Below the pieces are notes generated by a model, which ran no database searches, was not told where the DNA came from, and worked only from the letters and a program-made list of their open reading frames with translations. Of a DNA stretch of 20,314 nt, positions 11,860-20,185 are shown one piece after another. Position 1 is the stretch's first letter, and every line of letters starts with the position of its first letter. Source of the DNA: a virus; IMG/VR virus record IMGVR_UViG_3300048927_000086, positions 1 through 20,314 of that record; one strand, given 5' to 3'. Both the position numbers and the translations under genes were made by a program.

Positions 11860-12267
11860 ATGGCGACTGTCGCAGAAATTGTCAGCGGCGCGCTCGGTCT
11901 GCTGCGCGTGCTTGACGCCACCGAGGCTCCAGAAGCCGAAGACATGGAGACGGCTATTTCGGCCCTCAACATGATGATGGTTCGCTGGGAGGCCAATGGC
12001 TACTCGGTGGGCTGGTCGCCAGTCTCCAACCCCGCAGATGTAATGCCGAATGTGCCTGAGGCCGACGAGGCCATCATGTACAACTTGGCCGTCAAACTGC
12101 GCCCGCGCTATGGCGTGTCGATTGATCCTGACGTTTTCGCCGACGCCAGCCGGCTGAAGTCGGACGTACTGGCCGATGTGTTCGCGTCCAGCCCGATGGA
12201 GATGGAGCGGGGCATTCCCGGCTGGCGCTGCCGGTACAACATCCGTAGCGACGGATACCGCTACTGA
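11860..12267 (+). CDS. Head-to-tail adaptor, P22 gp4 family
   Basis: 135 residues (P22 gp4 has 166). The N-terminus (MATVAEIVSGALGLLRVLDA) and the block SALNMMMVRWEANGYSVGW are typical for the gp4 tail accessory factor. The helix EADEAIMYNLAVKLRPRYG is also a family hallmark. It binds the portal ring after packaging and is the base on which gp10 assembles. GAGGG precedes the ATG. The stop overlaps the nozzle gene (TGATG). The C-terminal extension of P22 gp4 appears shorter here. Confidence 0.88.
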   Translation: MATVAEIVSGALGLLRVLDATEAPEAEDMETAISALNMMMVRWEANGYSVGWSPVSNPADVMPNVPEADEAIMYNLAVKLRPRYGVSIDPDVFADASRLKSDVLADVFASSPMEMERGIPGWRCRYNIRSDGYRY

Positions 12268-14717
12268 TGCGCGCTCAGCCCGTAGACCTGATTGGCGGCT
12301 TCTACAAGGACGACAGCCTGCCGTGGTCGTGCCAGGACACGGTGAACTGGCTGCCTGTGCAGGCTGAGGTATCGGGCACGCGCTCGGTGGCAAAGCTCTC
12401 GACTCCGCCTGGGCTAAAGCCGTGGTTGACCGTTGGATCCGGTCCCGTTCGCGGCATGCACGATCTGGAAGGTGGTCGCTTCGTGGTCTCTGGGCAGACG
12501 CTATGCCGGATCAACCCGAACAACAGCGTTGATCCCATCGGCACGATCCCTGGCGTTGGCCGCGTGCAGATGACGCACAACCAGTTCAAGACCGGCTATC
12601 AGCTGCTGGTGGAGAACGGGCAGGGAGGTGGCGGTTATGTATACGACACCAATACCAGCACGTTGACCAAGATCGCCGACGAGGGCTATCCGGGCTCAAT
12701 CTCGTCGGACTACCTCGACCAGTACATCCTCGGCGTGGAGCCGCAGGGAAGATTCTGGTTCCACTCAAACCTGGCGGACGCTACCGATTACAACACGCTT
12801 GATCGGTACGAAGCCGAGTCCGCCCCCGACAAGATCGTGGGGCTGGCCGCAAACGCGTCTGAGGTTGTTGTATTTGGCGAGCGCACAACCGAATTCTTCT
12901 TCAATTCGGGTGCGGCAACAGGGACCTTCCAGAACCGCAGGAGCTCAATCACAAAGGGCTGTGCATCTCGGCACACAATTCAGAAGCTGGATAACAGCGT
13001 CTTCTGGCTCGGCAACGATGGTGTTGTGTATCGGTTGGAAAATGGGTACGCGGCCCGTCCGATTTCCACCCGCCCGCTGGAAAAGGCCATCAGCGGCTAC
13101 AACTGGCCTGAGGCAGTCGCGTACGTCTGGGAGGATCGCGGCCACAAGGTCTATTACCTGACCTTCCCAGACGGCCAGACGTTCGGCTACGACGTGATCA
13201 CTGGCCTCTGGCACCGTCGCGAGTCTTTTGGACTGAACCGCTGGAGGTTGAGCCACATCATCAGTTGGGGGCGCGATTGGTTCGGCGGCGATTTCCAGAG
13301 CGGCCGTATATGGCAGCTGGACTGGGACTACATCATGGAGGGTCAGGACCCGTTGGTCCGCCGCCGTGTTTCTCCTGTTGCTGCAGATAACCAGAGTGCC
13401 ATGACGAACCCGATGGCCGAACTGGTGTTTGATGTCGGTCGCGGCCCTGAAACGGTGGCCCTCTCCTTCCCGAACGCCATCACGATCAATGGAATCCCCC
13501 CGAGTACGTTGGTGGGCCTGACCTATCCGACGTTCTCGTTCACCGGCTCAGGCGGAACGGCCCCCTACACGTTCTCCATCGCCAGCGGATCGCTGCCGCC
13601 AGGGTTGTCCATGAGCGGCACGGGAGCTATTAGCGGGCTGTCTAATGCCGGAGGATCCTATCGTTTCACGGTTCGTGCTTATGACTCGCGTGGCGCTTGG
13701 ACAGAGGCGGATTACTCAATTCTAGTGATCGCTGGAGTCATCGGCCTGGCAACTCCGGATGTTCTATTCACCGGTAGCTACGAGTCTCTTGTTCCGTCTG
13801 CGCCGATATCTGCGCCATTCCCAGCGCAGAAACGAGCATTTGATGTATCTCCAAGCACTGCTTTCGCAGCAGTCGGCATTGGCACATCACCGTTCTTGCG
13901 GATGTATGCAATCAATCCGGCCAGAACGGCGTATGCAGAGATCCCGGTTGCGTCTCCGCCCTCGGGCACCGTTTACAGTTTGGGGTTCAATGCCGACGGT
14001 TCTATTCTTGCCGTCTCCTGTACTGACGGAGGGCAGAGCAGGTTGGTCATCTACCGTCTGGAGGCTGGTGCGTATGTGCGCAAGTCGTTCACGGCTATTG
14101 GCAGCCCTGGGCATGCAATGCGGTGGTCGCCTACGCGCAGTCAGCTGGTGGTATGGACGACCGCAGCGAGTCCTGATTTTGGATTCAGGGTGTTCAATAT
14201 CGATGCTGCGGCAGGGACTGTGTCCGGGTCGTTCTCGCCAACGCAGGCGCGACAAAGCGCCTCCTGCTTCGCCTTCTCGCCTGATGGTAACTACCTGGTT
14301 GTAAGTGGATTCCTGTCCACTAGTCCCACCGTCTATGCGATTGGTGAGGCGTCAATTTCCTACTTTACGACGGCTACGGGCCTAACGAATACGGAAATTG
14401 GCGTCTCGTTCTCTGGCAATGGTCAATGGATCTACTTCGCTTCTACCGCCGCAGCTCCTGCAAGTCAGAGGGTGATCGCATGCCCATTCAATTCCGGAGT
14501 AATTGGCTCGCCGTCCTATCCATTGGCTTCGGTTCCATTCTCCATCTATGACCTGAACGTGTCGCCAGCTGGAGATTATCTGGCTATTAGCAGATCAGAC
14601 ACGACGGGCACGGGGCTGGCGGTGTACAAGGCTAACGGGTCATCTCTGACTATTTCGCCGGACCAGCCGTCGTACGCGTTCAGCGCAGGCGCTATTTCCT
14701 TCACCTGGACACCGTGA
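12267..14717 (+). CDS. Tail nozzle (P22 gp10 family), N-terminal part fused to Ig-like and propeller domains
   Basis: 816 residues. Residues 1-397 match P22 gp10, the hub or nozzle below gp4: VDLIGGFYKDDSLPWSCQDT, VNWLPVQ, TPPGLKPWL and the conserved FHSNLADATDYNTLD. Just after FDVGRGPETVA (about residue 398) homology stops. Residues about 399-490 form a He_PIG Ig-like domain (APYTFSIASGSLPPGLSMSG, then GSYRFTVRAYDSRG). Residues about 493-816 hold WD40-like blade motifs (FNADGSILAVS, FSPDGNYLVVSG, FSGNGQWIYFAS, VSPAGDYLAISR). The missing gp10 C-terminus is the next ORF. The insert has lower GC than its flanks. Assembly as a two-chain nozzle is inferred. Confidence 0.88.
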   Translation: MRAQPVDLIGGFYKDDSLPWSCQDTVNWLPVQAEVSGTRSVAKLSTPPGLKPWLTVGSGPVRGMHDLEGGRFVVSGQTLCRINPNNSVDPIGTIPGVGRVQMTHNQFKTGYQLLVENGQGGGGYVYDTNTSTLTKIADEGYPGSISSDYLDQYILGVEPQGRFWFHSNLADATDYNTLDRYEAESAPDKIVGLAANASEVVVFGERTTEFFFNSGAATGTFQNRRSSITKGCASRHTIQKLDNSVFWLGNDGVVYRLENGYAARPISTRPLEKAISGYNWPEAVAYVWEDRGHKVYYLTFPDGQTFGYDVITGLWHRRESFGLNRWRLSHIISWGRDWFGGDFQSGRIWQLDWDYIMEGQDPLVRRRVSPVAADNQSAMTNPMAELVFDVGRGPETVALSFPNAITINGIPPSTLVGLTYPTFSFTGSGGTAPYTFSIASGSLPPGLSMSGTGAISGLSNAGGSYRFTVRAYDSRGAWTEADYSILVIAGVIGLATPDVLFTGSYESLVPSAPISAPFPAQKRAFDVSPSTAFAAVGIGTSPFLRMYAINPARTAYAEIPVASPPSGTVYSLGFNADGSILAVSCTDGGQSRLVIYRLEAGAYVRKSFTAIGSPGHAMRWSPTRSQLVVWTTAASPDFGFRVFNIDAAAGTVSGSFSPTQARQSASCFAFSPDGNYLVVSGFLSTSPTVYAIGEASISYFTTATGLTNTEIGVSFSGNGQWIYFASTAAAPASQRVIACPFNSGVIGSPSYPLASVPFSIYDLNVSPAGDYLAISRSDTTGTGLAVYKANGSSLTISPDQPSYAFSAGAISFTWTP

Positions 14718-14944
14718 TGGCCGATACCGACCACTACGTAGAGATCCGCTACAGCAACGACGGCGGCCACAACTGGCAGAACTGGAAGCGTCGTTCCATC
14801 GGAAAGACGGGCCAGTACGAGCAACGGGTGAAGATCCACCGCCTGGGTCGATTCCGCCAGCGAGTCTTTGAGATCAAGGTGTCCTCGCCGCGCAAGTCTG
14901 ACTTGCTCACTGCCGTCGTCAACTTTGAGCCAACGGACGACTGA
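14717..14944 (+). CDS. C-terminal fragment of the gp10-like tail nozzle as a separate ORF
   Basis: 75 residues. ATG 14717 overlaps the stop of the preceding ORF (TGATG); a GTG at 14714 is in the same frame. The sequence YSNDGGHNWQNWKRRSIGK, then YEQRVKIHRLGRFRQRVFEI and VSSPRKSDL, is the conserved end of gp10-family nozzle proteins, which are normally one chain of about 472 residues. The two gp10-like parts sum to about that length (397 plus 75). No ribosome site is evident, so translation probably relies on reinitiation. No -1 slippery heptamer is visible. It may be a functional split subunit or a decaying remnant; the intact frame favours function. Confidence 0.82.
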   Translation: MADTDHYVEIRYSNDGGHNWQNWKRRSIGKTGQYEQRVKIHRLGRFRQRVFEIKVSSPRKSDLLTAVVNFEPTDD

Positions 14945-15501
14945 TGAAGATCGCGACCGATCCATGCTTCCTGCAGGAAGTCATGGATCACCCCGCTGTG
15001 CGTCCGTGGATTGGGCCGGATGGCGTGGAGGGGTCGTGGCCGCTTGCTGCGATCTTCGATCAGGGGATCGGGGTTGAGTTCGACGGCGGCGGGTTCTTCT
15101 TCCACCGCCTCGGTGATGGCGTGGTTGAGGTGCACACGGTGTTTCTCCCTGGCACGAAGGGCGTGGCACGGTTCTGCGCGCAGGCGGCTGAATACCTGTT
15201 CTGTGGCACCGAAGTGACCAAGATTGTCACGAAGGTTCCCGTCGACAACGTGCCGGCCCTGCGCCTGACCGAGCGGGTGGGGTTCCGCCTGGATTACGTA
15301 CGTCCTTTCGCTTTCCTGCGCGGCGGCGTGCTGCACGACGTGAGGCACTACAGCTGGGACATCGATCTCTGGCTGCGCGGCACTGCGGGCCCTCAGTGGG
15401 CCTATGAGCGCTGCTGCGAACTGGACAACAAGAACAAGGGCCTGCGCCTGCGATACCGCTGGGCAGTGATGAACGACGACTATTCGGTATTGGAGAGCTG
15501 A
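14944..15501 (+). CDS. gp14-like protein with a GNAT-like fold (DUF2824 type)
   Basis: 185 residues, TGATG overlap with the preceding gene. The middle and end read like an acetyltransferase fold: VEVHTVFLPGTKGVARFCAQ, then TKIVTKVPVDNVPALRLTER and VGFRLDYVRPFAFLRGGVLH. The NxPALRLxxxxGF pattern is the usual GNAT C-terminal part. P22 gp14, a minor protein needed for infectious particles, belongs to DUF2824, and the place between gp10 and gp7 is the same. Whether it binds acetyl-CoA is unknown; the P-loop-like acceptor motif is only partly conserved (PGTKGVA). A cytoplasmic assembly role is the likely function. Confidence 0.78.
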   Translation: MKIATDPCFLQEVMDHPAVRPWIGPDGVEGSWPLAAIFDQGIGVEFDGGGFFFHRLGDGVVEVHTVFLPGTKGVARFCAQAAEYLFCGTEVTKIVTKVPVDNVPALRLTERVGFRLDYVRPFAFLRGGVLHDVRHYSWDIDLWLRGTAGPQWAYERCCELDNKNKGLRLRYRWAVMNDDYSVLES

Positions 15502-16370: not shown

Positions 16371-17792
16371 GTGGCAGACATCTTCGATTCGTATGCCCGT
16401 GGCCTGCAGGTGGGCCAGCAGCAGAAGCAACGTAACCAGCTCGCCGAGCTGCAGACGCTGGCCCCCCAGGTCATGGGCGGCAATCTGGATGCAACCAGCC
16501 GGGCCTACGCGCTGGATCCGCAAACCGCCCAGGCCTACCAGACCGAGGGCAACCGCCAGCAGCAGCAGCTCGTCGGCCTCGCCAAGACGCTGAAGCAGTT
16601 CGCCAACAACCCGCAGATGCAGGCGGGTGTATACCGCTCGGCCCTCCCATACCTCAAGCGCAACTTCGGCGCCGAGATCCCCGATGACTTCGATGCAGCT
16701 TCGGTCATGCCGATTGTCGATCAGGTGCTGGCGGTGGCCCAGAACGCTCCCAGTAACGGTGGCGCTGGTGGAACCTTGCAATCGCAGCGGATTCTTGAAG
16801 ACGGCAGTATCCTTAATACCTATCGTGATGGTCGAACCGAGAACACTGGGCTCAAGGCTGACCGTCGTCAGTGGTTCCGTGATCAGCCAGGTTTTGAACC
16901 TGAGATCATCAACGCGGACGGGACGATTACTTCTATCGGCGGGGCTCCTGCTCCGGCACGTGGCGGTCAGGGCGTCAATGTTGGTCAGGGCGCAGGTGCT
17001 GTGCGGATGAACATCGAGGGCATTCCTGCCGAGCAGCAGCAGCGCATGGCCCAGACCGTTTCCATGATGCAGCAGGCAGGCTATCCAGAAGCTGATATCG
17101 CATCGTTCCTGCAGAGCCAGCTTCCTCCCGACGTTCCCGGGCTTCCGCAGGCAGGATCGCCCCAGCTGCAAGCCATGAGCCGCGCCCGCCCCACAGCTGC
17201 TCAAGATGCGGCGGCGGTAGAAATGGCACGTCAGAACGTCCAGCTCTCCGCACTTCCTGCCGAACTGGGGATGAGGTCTCAGGCCGCTATCTCTCAGGCA
17301 GAGGGGATTGAACGCGTAAAGTCACAGCAAGAGCGCGAATCCAACGCCCGAACTAAAAACGCATCCCTCAACAACGTTGACCGTGGGCTAAAGCGCATCG
17401 AGTCAGCCATGAACGGGCTCAGTGGCAGATTTGTGGACACGGGCCCCATCGATGGTCGGATCATGAGCAGCACACCCGCAGGGCAGGAGCTTGAGGCCGC
17501 AGTAGGCGCGATCCAGAACGATGTGCTGGCGCTGACGCGGGTTCCCGGTATTGGCTCGCAATCCGATCTGGAAGCGAAAATTGCGAATCTGAAGTATCCG
17601 TCGATCTACAACGCCCCTGATGTCAACGCTCGTAATGTCCAGCAGCTCAAGGCCTTCATCAAGGATCTTAGGGATGGCATTCAGGGGGGCTCACAGACTG
17701 GAGGCAGTGGACCGGCGCCGGGAACCGTAGAGGATGGATATCGCTTCCGTGGGGGCAACCCATCCGATCCCAATAGCTGGGAGCGCATCTAA
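16371..17792 (+). CDS. Ejection protein, P22 gp20-like
   Basis: 473 residues from GTG 16371 (P22 gp20 has 471). GGGAG eight bases upstream supports it; an ATG at 16263 lies inside the gp7-like gene and would add 36 unrelated residues. The protein is Gln/Ala-rich and helical: DSYARGLQVGQQQKQRNQLA at the N-terminus, a central region with TYRDGRTENTGLKADRRQWF, and a long helical part near SLNNVDRGLKRIESAMNGL. The name rests on gene order, length and composition more than on motifs. It would be packed in the head and injected with the DNA. Confidence 0.75.
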   Translation: MADIFDSYARGLQVGQQQKQRNQLAELQTLAPQVMGGNLDATSRAYALDPQTAQAYQTEGNRQQQQLVGLAKTLKQFANNPQMQAGVYRSALPYLKRNFGAEIPDDFDAASVMPIVDQVLAVAQNAPSNGGAGGTLQSQRILEDGSILNTYRDGRTENTGLKADRRQWFRDQPGFEPEIINADGTITSIGGAPAPARGGQGVNVGQGAGAVRMNIEGIPAEQQQRMAQTVSMMQQAGYPEADIASFLQSQLPPDVPGLPQAGSPQLQAMSRARPTAAQDAAAVEMARQNVQLSALPAELGMRSQAAISQAEGIERVKSQQERESNARTKNASLNNVDRGLKRIESAMNGLSGRFVDTGPIDGRIMSSTPAGQELEAAVGAIQNDVLALTRVPGIGSQSDLEAKIANLKYPSIYNAPDVNARNVQQLKAFIKDLRDGIQGGSQTGGSGPAPGTVEDGYRFRGGNPSDPNSWERI

Positions 17793-20185
17793 TGGCTGGC
17801 CCGTGGGAGAAGTATCAGGCCGCCCCCGTGGAAGCTCCCGCTGTCGAAGGGCCCTGGGCGAAGTATGCGGCAGCTCAGCCCGATGCCGAGGCAGAGCAGC
17901 TGCCCTCAGAGGTGGTCGATAAGCCGCTTGAAATTGAGATTGTTGGTGGGAAGAGGGCGCCTGACGGCTGGGAGTACGGACCCGGTCGAGATCTCGCCTT
18001 TGGTGCCCGCTCGCTCCTGCAAGGTGCTGGCGGTTTGCTTGGCGCTGTCGGTGGCGACGCGTTTAACAACTACGTAGCCAACCCCATTGCGCGGGCTGTT
18101 GGCATGCAGGAAGCTCGCCCGTACCGAGAGGAAGCGGCGGCTCTAGCTGATCGTCTTGGCCTGCCGCAGGCTCAAACTGCTGGTGACCGAGTACTGGGGG
18201 ACGTGGGCGAAGCACTGACTGGAACCGGGCTGACGCTCGGCATCGGCGCAGGCGCCAATGCACTTTCAAACGTCGGCCGTGCAGGCACTGCCCCGGCGAC
18301 AAACCGCCTAGGACAATTCCTCACCGCTCAGCCTGGGCTGCAGACGATCTCGGCCGCAACTGGTTCCGGCGCGTCGTCTACTGCTCGCGAATCTGGTGCT
18401 TCACAGGGGAACCAGCTGCTCGCCGGTCTGGCTGGTGGGCTTGGCCCAGGACTGGTAACGGCGGGAGGAGGTGCGGCACTGCGCGGAGCTGTGCGTGGGA
18501 CCTCTGGCGAACAGATGCGGAACACGCTGGCTGACTTTGAGCGCCTTGGTGCTAATCCATCAGTTGGTCAAGCCTCGGGGAATCGGCTTCTTCAAGGGGC
18601 TGAAAATCTTCTGGCTCAGTCTCCGACAAGTGCTGGAGTCATGGCGCGTGCAGCAGAGCGTCAATCTAGTGAGATCAGATCTGGGCTCCGCAGCTTCGCA
18701 GATGACCTCTCACGAAATGCCAGTGGCGAACGTGCCGGGCGTGCCATCAAGCGCGGGATATTCGATGAGGGCGGCTTCAGCCAGCAGTTCAAGGCAACGC
18801 AAGATCAGCTTTATGGAAAAGTGGATGAACTTGTCCCGCCTGACACCGGAGTCCTGCTTGGTAAGACCCGGGCCGCCCTAGACTCGTTGAGCAACCCCAT
18901 CAAATCGCCAGGGGCGCCGAACGTCGCGCGGCTGTTCCAGAATGGAAGGATTACCAGCATTGGTAATGCCGTTGAGGCTGACGTTGCGCTTCCTACTCAG
19001 CAGCAGCTTTCGCTGGACGAGGCTGTTGCGAAGCTCAACCAGTTGTACGCCTCCCGGGACGCGGCAACCCAAGATGCCGGGCGGTTTGCAGCATTTGCCA
19101 ACGATCAAGGAAACATCGCCCGTCAATCTCCACAGGCTGGGATGGCGCAGAGAAATGCGGTCGCTGGTCAGCAAGCAGCCGATGAGGCTACCGGCATCGC
19201 ACGTGAGAGGGTGTCTCAGGCGGCGGAAATCGAGCAGACCCTTGGAGAACTAACGGCGGCTGCCCAGGCGTCTGGCGGTCAGCTGCCCTATGAGGCGGTT
19301 AAGAAACTCCGCTCCCTGGTTGGCGAGGAGCTGCAGGATGCCGGGCTGATGTCCAACTTCCCGCGTTCCAAGTTCAAGGCGCTCTATGCAGCGTTGTCTG
19401 ACGACCTTGAGTCCACTGTTCGTGAGGCTGGGCCAGAAGCTGCAGCAGCCTACAGCCGTGCCAATGCCTACACGCGCGCTGGCATGCGGCGCATGGAGGA
19501 TATCGAGAGCGTCATCGACCGCAATGGCGGCCCGGAGAAGATCTATTCGGCGGCGCTTGCTAGCGGCAAAGATGGCGGGACTACGATTAGGGCTGTAATG
19601 CAGTCTCTGCCTAAGGAGAGCCAGAAGGCCGTAACTGCTGCCGTCATCAAGCGCCTTGGCCGTGCAAATTCTGGAGCGCAAGACGCGGGTGGAGAGGTAT
19701 TCAGTGCAAGGACCTTCCTCACCAACTGGGACAACGTCAGCCCGGAGGCGCGCAAGGCGCTGTTCGACCGATACGGCGAAGGGTTCAGCAAGCAGATCGA
19801 CCAGTTGGCAAGAGTGGCCGACCGGATCGACAGCGGAGCGGGAGTCTTCAAGAATCCTCCGGGCACAGCGAAAAGTGTGGCCGCTCTCACCTATGGCGCG
19901 TCACTGGTAGGCAGCCTCTTCACTGGAGGAACGGGCTATTTGCTAGCGGGAGGATTGACGGCAAATGCTATGGCAAGGCTTATGACCAATCCAACCGTGG
20001 TCAGGAAGTTGGCGCACGCCACGACAATGCCAATCGGCGGAGTCTTAGCAACTGCAAGGAGCCTTCAAGAGGTCGCGAATAGGGAGGATGACCCCGATAT
20101 TTCCGCACTCGCTGCATACCTATCTCAAGACCCACAGCGCGAACTGAATCAGCCCGTACAGAACGACAACCCCGGATACCAATAG
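17792..20185 (+). CDS. Ejection protein, P22 gp16-like, large
   Basis: 797 residues (P22 gp16 has 609). ATG 17792 overlaps the preceding stop (TAATG). The N-terminus carries two copies of GPW(E/A)KY at residues 3-8 and 20-25, a motif seen in large internal virion proteins. Hydrophobic segments occur at about 64-84 (GARSLLQGAGGLLGAVGG), 135-158, and 695-730 (VAALTYGASLVGSLFTGGTG), interspersed with long charged helices. P22 gp16 is injected and inserts into membranes to let DNA cross. The place after the gp20-like gene supports this role. The C-terminal 66 bases overlap a minus-strand gene. Confidence 0.78.
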   Translation: MAGPWEKYQAAPVEAPAVEGPWAKYAAAQPDAEAEQLPSEVVDKPLEIEIVGGKRAPDGWEYGPGRDLAFGARSLLQGAGGLLGAVGGDAFNNYVANPIARAVGMQEARPYREEAAALADRLGLPQAQTAGDRVLGDVGEALTGTGLTLGIGAGANALSNVGRAGTAPATNRLGQFLTAQPGLQTISAATGSGASSTARESGASQGNQLLAGLAGGLGPGLVTAGGGAALRGAVRGTSGEQMRNTLADFERLGANPSVGQASGNRLLQGAENLLAQSPTSAGVMARAAERQSSEIRSGLRSFADDLSRNASGERAGRAIKRGIFDEGGFSQQFKATQDQLYGKVDELVPPDTGVLLGKTRAALDSLSNPIKSPGAPNVARLFQNGRITSIGNAVEADVALPTQQQLSLDEAVAKLNQLYASRDAATQDAGRFAAFANDQGNIARQSPQAGMAQRNAVAGQQAADEATGIARERVSQAAEIEQTLGELTAAAQASGGQLPYEAVKKLRSLVGEELQDAGLMSNFPRSKFKALYAALSDDLESTVREAGPEAAAAYSRANAYTRAGMRRMEDIESVIDRNGGPEKIYSAALASGKDGGTTIRAVMQSLPKESQKAVTAAVIKRLGRANSGAQDAGGEVFSARTFLTNWDNVSPEARKALFDRYGEGFSKQIDQLARVADRIDSGAGVFKNPPGTAKSVAALTYGASLVGSLFTGGTGYLLAGGLTANAMARLMTNPTVVRKLAHATTMPIGGVLATARSLQEVANREDDPDISALAAYLSQDPQRELNQPVQNDNPGYQ

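Follow-up and report, generated by a model that had tools for sequence, protein, structure and literature searches.

The window analysed here is the whole 20,314-nucleotide (20.3 kb) stretch of the IMG/VR virus record IMGVR_UViG_3300048927_000086, which carries a P22-like head and tail module with terminase, portal, coat, gp4-like adaptor and gp10-like nozzle genes. The gp4-gp10 gene order, adaptor followed by nozzle, is retained. The nozzle gene occupies two open reading frames (ORFs). ORF1 (12267-14717, 816 amino acids (aa), ending in a TGA at 14715-14717) encodes most of a gp10-type nozzle and continues into an Ig-like domain and a beta-propeller, together referred to as the cassette, while ORF2 encodes the C-terminal nozzle piece as a separate chain (Table 1). 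The split recurs at the same loop in related viruses, and the cassette is exchanged between nearly identical nozzles.

Table 1. Features of the split nozzle locus, numbered along the window (pLDDT, predicted local distance difference test).
Feature	Position	Strand	Evidence
P22 gp4-like tail accessory/adaptor gene	11860..12267	+	PF11650, E 9e-6; PHROG 637 (head-tail adaptor), E 4e-24; directly upstream of nozzle ORF1
ORF1 residues 1-394, gp10-family nozzle: N-terminus, propeller and first strand after the propeller	12267..13448	+	PHROG 578 positions 1-400, E 9.8e-113; PF11134
ORF1 residues 419-487, Ig-like He_PIG domain at the cassette start	13521..13727	+	PF05345, E 1e-9; pLDDT mostly 80-89
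ORF1 residues 490-816, predicted seven-bladed beta-propeller (WD40/PD40/YVTN-like), exchangeable terminal domain	13734..14714	+	AlphaFold2 pLDDT mostly 70-90; structure alignment
TGATG, ORF1 stop (14715-14717) overlapping ORF2 start (14717-14719)	14715..14719	+	Sequence
ORF2, 75 aa, gp10 C-terminal platform-like beta piece, separate chain	14717..14944	+	PHROG 578 positions 403-471 of 486, E 1.7e-12

Both pieces match PHROG 578, the head closure Hc3/gp10 family with a profile length of 486. In many unsplit phages, the nozzle part of ORF1 and ORF2 match neighbouring stretches of one gene; in Vibrio phage FGH these matches lie at 16971-18026 and 18048-18239, with 21 nucleotides (nt) between them. 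A stretch homologous to ORF2 is present in 32 unsplit phage records, and the break falls in a loop that reads 'EFTPGVGLQTGQGQNPQIMMRWSNDGG' in Xanthomonas phage PBR31. These matches bear out an earlier, sequence-only reading of the window, which had proposed that the 816-residue ORF joins a gp10-type nozzle to an Ig-like plus propeller cassette, that the next ORF is the 75-residue gp10 C-terminus, and that gp10-like lengths of 397 and 75 residues add up to one gp10. Judged by homology, the nozzle part and ORF2 both derive from the P22 gp10 family. A single uninterrupted chain is a defining property of P22 gp10-type nozzles, and the gene here stops and restarts, so the window nozzle represents a variant derived from this family and not a standard member.

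The cassette opens with a He_PIG domain scoring 39.1 bits against PF05345 (curated cut-off 24), and WD40/PD40 profile signals start at about residue 566 of ORF1. In the AlphaFold2 model of window ORF1, the cassette has a pLDDT of about 60-90, and residues 490-816 are predicted to adopt a seven-bladed propeller fold. This region aligns with 1l0q_A at Z 29.9 (root-mean-square deviation (rmsd) 2.7, 288 aligned residues) and with several other seven-bladed propellers at Z 26-29. The structures it matches best are those of an archaeal surface-layer propeller and of folds like 6-phosphogluconolactonase, a resemblance that does not imply a common function. The window propeller has no match among 50,697 phage records, and no named phage in that set carries the same cassette. 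A search of 91 Stenotrophomonas-group genomes for a free-standing cassette of the window type gave only one copy borne on a nozzle and a TolB-like protein of the chromosome. A diversity-generating retroelement, a shufflon or a silent second cassette was rejected because eight full-length records and the window hold no second near-copy of cassette DNA, the sole extra match being 39 nt long (E 0.008).

Relatives were drawn from 17 close viral relatives, then from 80 loci found through a nozzle alignment search, and from 18 of 395 host-family genomes. Each locus was scored by two distinct profiles, one per nozzle piece (nozzle part or C-terminal piece), and was counted if its junction was readable. 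This yields 35 distinct split loci, the window included, from both isolates and metagenomes, and all are broken at the same loop, a recurrence that chance could not plausibly produce. Two have named hosts, Stenotrophomonas sp. BIGb0135 and [Pseudomonas] hibiscicola ATCC 19867. The split form is absent from all phage records inspected. On a tree of 71 nozzle parts, it requires 7 label changes against a shuffled mean of 24, indicating that split nozzles cluster together but that the split was gained or lost several times; single-chain relatives fall both within and outside the split group. At locus L017 (4001-4876), the reading frame of the nozzle is interrupted past residue 272 and continues in a different one, reflecting either a sequencing error or a decaying prophage.

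The junction varies in its details from locus to locus. ORF2 lies in the -1 frame relative to ORF1 in the window, and its relative frame is 0, 1 or 2 in 3, 13 and 19 of the 35 loci, respectively. In 33 of them, the ORF1 stop and ORF2 start overlap by 8, 4 or 1 nt or are separated by 1-3 nt, within a full range of -8 to +24 nt; L161, outside the 33, would have a 4-nt overlap if an upstream GTG is taken as the start. ORF2 nearly always opens on an ATG of its own, at one constant residue (M-x-DTDH or similar). No common sequence precedes the junction across split loci, and a Shine-Dalgarno-like motif is found before ORF2 in 12 of 35 loci, compared with 12% of random positions. This geometry fits coupled re-initiation, which may operate at the junction. 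Complete copies of ORF2 are intact at 66-76 aa, and the ratio of nonsynonymous to synonymous substitution (dN/dS, NG86) has a median of 0.26 over 194 pairs and is 0.04 between the window and L002, indicating purifying selection on ORF2. Together, the 35 loci and their varying frames exclude programmed frameshifting as well as a sequencing error at 14714-14719, which the sequence-only reading, in combination with unsplit relatives of the same domain order, had named beforehand as grounds for abandoning the split.

Loci L004, L005 and L009 agree at 96-97% in the nozzle part and at 92-96% in ORF2. Their terminal domains (PD40-type propeller, SPRY-like and LamG) share no mutual blastp similarity, revealing a conserved part of the virion that anchors an exchangeable domain at its distal end. 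In DNA, L004 matches L005 at 89% between the ATG of the nozzle gene and its codon 393; no similarity is detectable through the cassette, and the two become similar again exactly at the ORF2 ATG; similarity returns 2 nt before this ATG between L004 and L009 and 3 nt before it between L005 and L009. The DNA common to L005 and L009 is limited to the nozzle part and a short segment around ORF2, and the alleles upstream and downstream differ, which shows that the two nozzle pieces move jointly while the cassette between them is exchanged. Across 29 loci, the identity of the nozzle part correlates with that of ORF2 at r 0.90, against r 0.16 for the cassette; in a clade of 21 loci whose nozzles are at least 67% identical, the cassettes average 28% identity. 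The cassette is a module swapped between conserved flanks.

At least eight kinds of content occupy the slot, and certain relatives carry inserts there in an unsplit gene. The domain types include WD40/PD40 propellers, BNR/sortilin-like propellers, LamG (E 3e-17), a SPRY-like type matching profiles of RanBP9/10, RyR and TRIM SPRY domains (best E 3e-4), and a nameless type (L006, L012). Single-chain relatives with an insert in the same loop comprise L087 and L092 (about 150 aa) and L106 (about 480 aa), as well as L150 and L151, in which a gene transfer agent (GTA) TIM-barrel (PF13547, E 4.6e-112) lies within one 997-aa chain ending with the gp10 C-terminus. Other relatives hold entire genes between the nozzle part and the C-terminal piece, one or two of them in L093/L094 and L148. 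The middle gene of L093 belongs to a tail-fibre family (PHROG 4176, E 4e-56), with homologues in 61 records of named phages, 35 from Xanthomonas and 24 from Stenotrophomonas. In L100, a separate 236-aa ORF with a SPRY-like C-terminal part lies between the halves. The inserted cassette of the sequence-only reading thus stands insofar as an Ig/propeller cassette breaks the nozzle, but a single event is too narrow a description of this range of contents and of the inserts that leave the gene whole. Exchange at the break suggests a dedicated slot for altering phage contact with the bacterial host.

The GTA TIM-barrel occupies residues 624-899 of L150, where it lies within a P22-type nozzle; its other occurrences in this analysis are in tail proteins of the GTA type from other phages. 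By profile match, this domain seems to be a module that crosses tail types. Among the nearest named relatives of L150 is a protein of Xanthomonas phage LucasX, 61% identical and labelled 'gene transfer agent host specificity protein'. One genome contains two copies of the 997-aa gene, about 37 kb apart on one contig (L150 and L151; G389:C2:103393-104565 and 140663-141835), and the pair looks like two tandem or duplicated prophages. The PHROG 19101 profile (595 positions) starts almost at the insertion point of L150 (residue 408) and covers residues 408-993, to the chain end. These profile limits suggest that some viruses may break the nozzle before the cassette, so that the module and the C-terminal piece would form one chain.

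The structural position of the break was read from L087, which has both halves in one chain. Its model has a mean pLDDT of 74, with low values in the insert itself, and its residues 2-611 align with residues 2-472 of P22 gp10 (8eap_D) at Z 37.9 and rmsd 2.1 over 434 residues, with the insert skipped. The last strand ahead of the insert spans 377-388, and five strands follow the insert at 545-612. On this model, the break site is most likely a surface loop that tolerates large additions, located after the propeller and before the C-terminal platform strands. Both terminal portions of the chain contribute to the platform of T7 and SU10 (PMC6702177, PMC9509320); since it is already built from separate chain segments, it is a plausible place to tolerate a chain break. 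In T7, the fibre dock lies on the outer surface, between the propeller and the C-terminal platform and next to the adaptor (PMC6702177). By analogy, the cassette is expected to project laterally from the nozzle close to the adaptor, at the platform and fibre-dock level, and not at the tip. The sequence-only reading had placed the module hanging from the tail tip, a position not supported by homology with T7, in which the region preceding the C-terminal platform strands corresponds to the fibre dock (PMC6702177).

We consider it probable, at roughly 0.68, that the nozzle consists of two chains, with the C-terminal platform piece as a separate subunit and an exchangeable host-contact module displayed at the junction. 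Under this two-chain model, ORF1 and ORF2 would be produced from one message by stop/start-coupled translation and would assemble on the gp4 ring. ORF1 would provide the platform strands at the N-terminus, then the propeller and one strand beyond it, and ORF2 the other five strands, at the C-terminus, of the platform piece in contact with the adaptor. The free C-terminal arm of ORF1, an Ig-like spacer plus terminal domain, would be shown around the tail at the fibre-dock level in up to six copies per virion. The terminal domain may act as an accessory host-contact module in surface binding and, in some relatives, perhaps in glycan hydrolysis. Homologous recombination would swap this domain between its flanks, at nozzle codon ~393 on the left and the ORF2 start on the right. 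Because these phages keep separate tail-fibre/spike genes, located after the ejection genes, the module would add to them as an accessory arm with a host-contact or enzymatic role. Evenly balanced, in our judgement, is the further proposal that the two-subunit nozzle evolved so that the host-contact module could be replaced as a unit, with the 75-residue subunit completing the platform strands in trans and the gene break serving as the exchange slot.

Several alternatives bear on the two-chain model. One locus by itself could not exclude error, and the view that the split reflects a sequencing error or a degenerating gene, with ORF2 as a relic, has next to no chance of being correct in light of its recurrence in isolates and metagenomes and the intact, selectively constrained ORF2. 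It is also highly improbable that programmed frameshifting or stop-codon readthrough fuses the ORFs, at a low or high rate, into a single long nozzle chain in the virion like those of L150 and L106. Such fusion would accord with the single-chain relatives that have inserts in the same loop and with the -1 frame of the window ORF2, but programmed frameshift fusion predicts a constant frame relation, and ORF2 instead occurs in all three frames, with variable gaps, no shared sequence ahead of the junction and, almost always, its own ATG. A structural role for the cassette, which would stabilise the nozzle, shield the tail or dock the tail fibres with a diversity that follows the fibres, is unlikely. 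Fibres of T7 and SU10 do dock at nearby nozzle sites (PMC6702177, PMC9509320), and tail-fibre genes lie downstream in these phages; a fibre dock, however, is expected to be conserved along with the fibre N-terminus, and the terminal domains exchanged between near-identical nozzles are binding types (LamG, SPRY-like, BNR/WD40 propellers) or a GTA TIM-barrel.

A more distinctly improbable alternative is that the terminal domain is chiefly an enzyme, a glycan or peptidoglycan hydrolase directed against the envelope, and not an adhesin. Glycosidases also contain beta-propeller and LamG folds, the GTA_TIM domain of L150 has homologues in GTA-type tail proteins, and hydrolytic or growth-inhibiting activity of tail tubular proteins has been reported. 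Most cassette types, however, lack a recognisable hydrolase family, and the structural matches of the window propeller imply no common function. Cassette swapping and the presence of a tail-fibre gene or a GTA TIM-barrel in the same slot lend the host-contact idea strong indirect support. Some observations weigh against the two-chain model. The window nozzle half is modelled poorly, with pLDDT below 50 over most of residues 137-403, and its geometry is borrowed from L087. The joint travel of the nozzle part and ORF2 demonstrates co-inheritance, not contact; we infer joint assembly of the chains in one nozzle, outward display and receptor contact. Dedicated tail-fibre genes also exist, and a nozzle with an Ig plus LamG-type cassette in L097 (2354-4501) has no recognisable ORF2. 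The next gene in L097 overlaps the nozzle stop (ATGA) but is not ORF2, and no gp10 C-terminal piece was found nearby.

The gene immediately after ORF2 is itself exchanged (window 14944-15501; L002 6672-7217; L009 6135-6506; L100 6121-6756). Its alleles include a GNAT-like acyltransferase of 185 aa, other GNAT-like proteins of 146-151 aa and an unrelated protein of ~181 aa that resembles a 2OG-Fe dioxygenase, as judged by eye.

Short-tailed phages conserve a structural core that includes the nozzle gene. In many prophages of Xanthomonadaceae and many metagenomic viruses, this gene is cut in two, and the cut serves as a slot that surface domains occupy. If true, the model would provide a second route, besides tail fibres, for varying what touches the host, and if assembly in trans were confirmed, the nozzle would be a natural split-protein system in a DNA-gating ring. 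Annotation is likely to overlook the split nozzle, as ORF2 can pass for an orphan of 75 aa and the cassette for a protein of the WD40 or Ig type.

The closest known systems are the P22 gp10, Sf6 gp8, Pam1 and Pan3 nozzles (PHROG 578, PF11134; PDB 8eap, 8u10, 7sg7, 7eeq and 9vyg), which resemble the window in sequence, in the predicted fold of both pieces and in gp4-gp10 order. Known members of the P22 gp10 type are single chains of about 440-475 aa that lack a cassette, whereas two chains and an exchangeable module at the break are found here. A split, swappable nozzle was not reported in the open-access PubMed Central literature searched, which does not prove that no report exists. The tail tubular proteins A and B of Vibrio phage OWB bind a host receptor (PMC7241545) and thus offer an example of a nozzle/adaptor contacting a receptor; unlike in the present case, the abstract of that paper describes no dedicated exchangeable domain or split. 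Modular tail-fibre and tail-spike receptor-binding proteins likewise join a conserved anchor to an exchangeable C-terminal domain, but here the anchor is the nozzle itself, and its conserved part resumes downstream as a separate gene. Large nozzle-inserted domains, some of them Ig-like and thought to meet the cell surface, are also found in T7 gp12, SU10 gp17 and the phicrAss001 gp44 muzzle. Those inserts open the propeller around blades 2-3, form the distal tip and are fixed in one chain (PMC6702177, PMC9509320, PMC10172136). In contrast, the site described here lies between the propeller and the C-terminal platform strands, in a gene that is split, and what the site holds is swapped between close relatives. 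Nozzles with fixed inserted domains are already known; a split one with a swappable slot appears new within the open-access papers searched and the phage records inspected.

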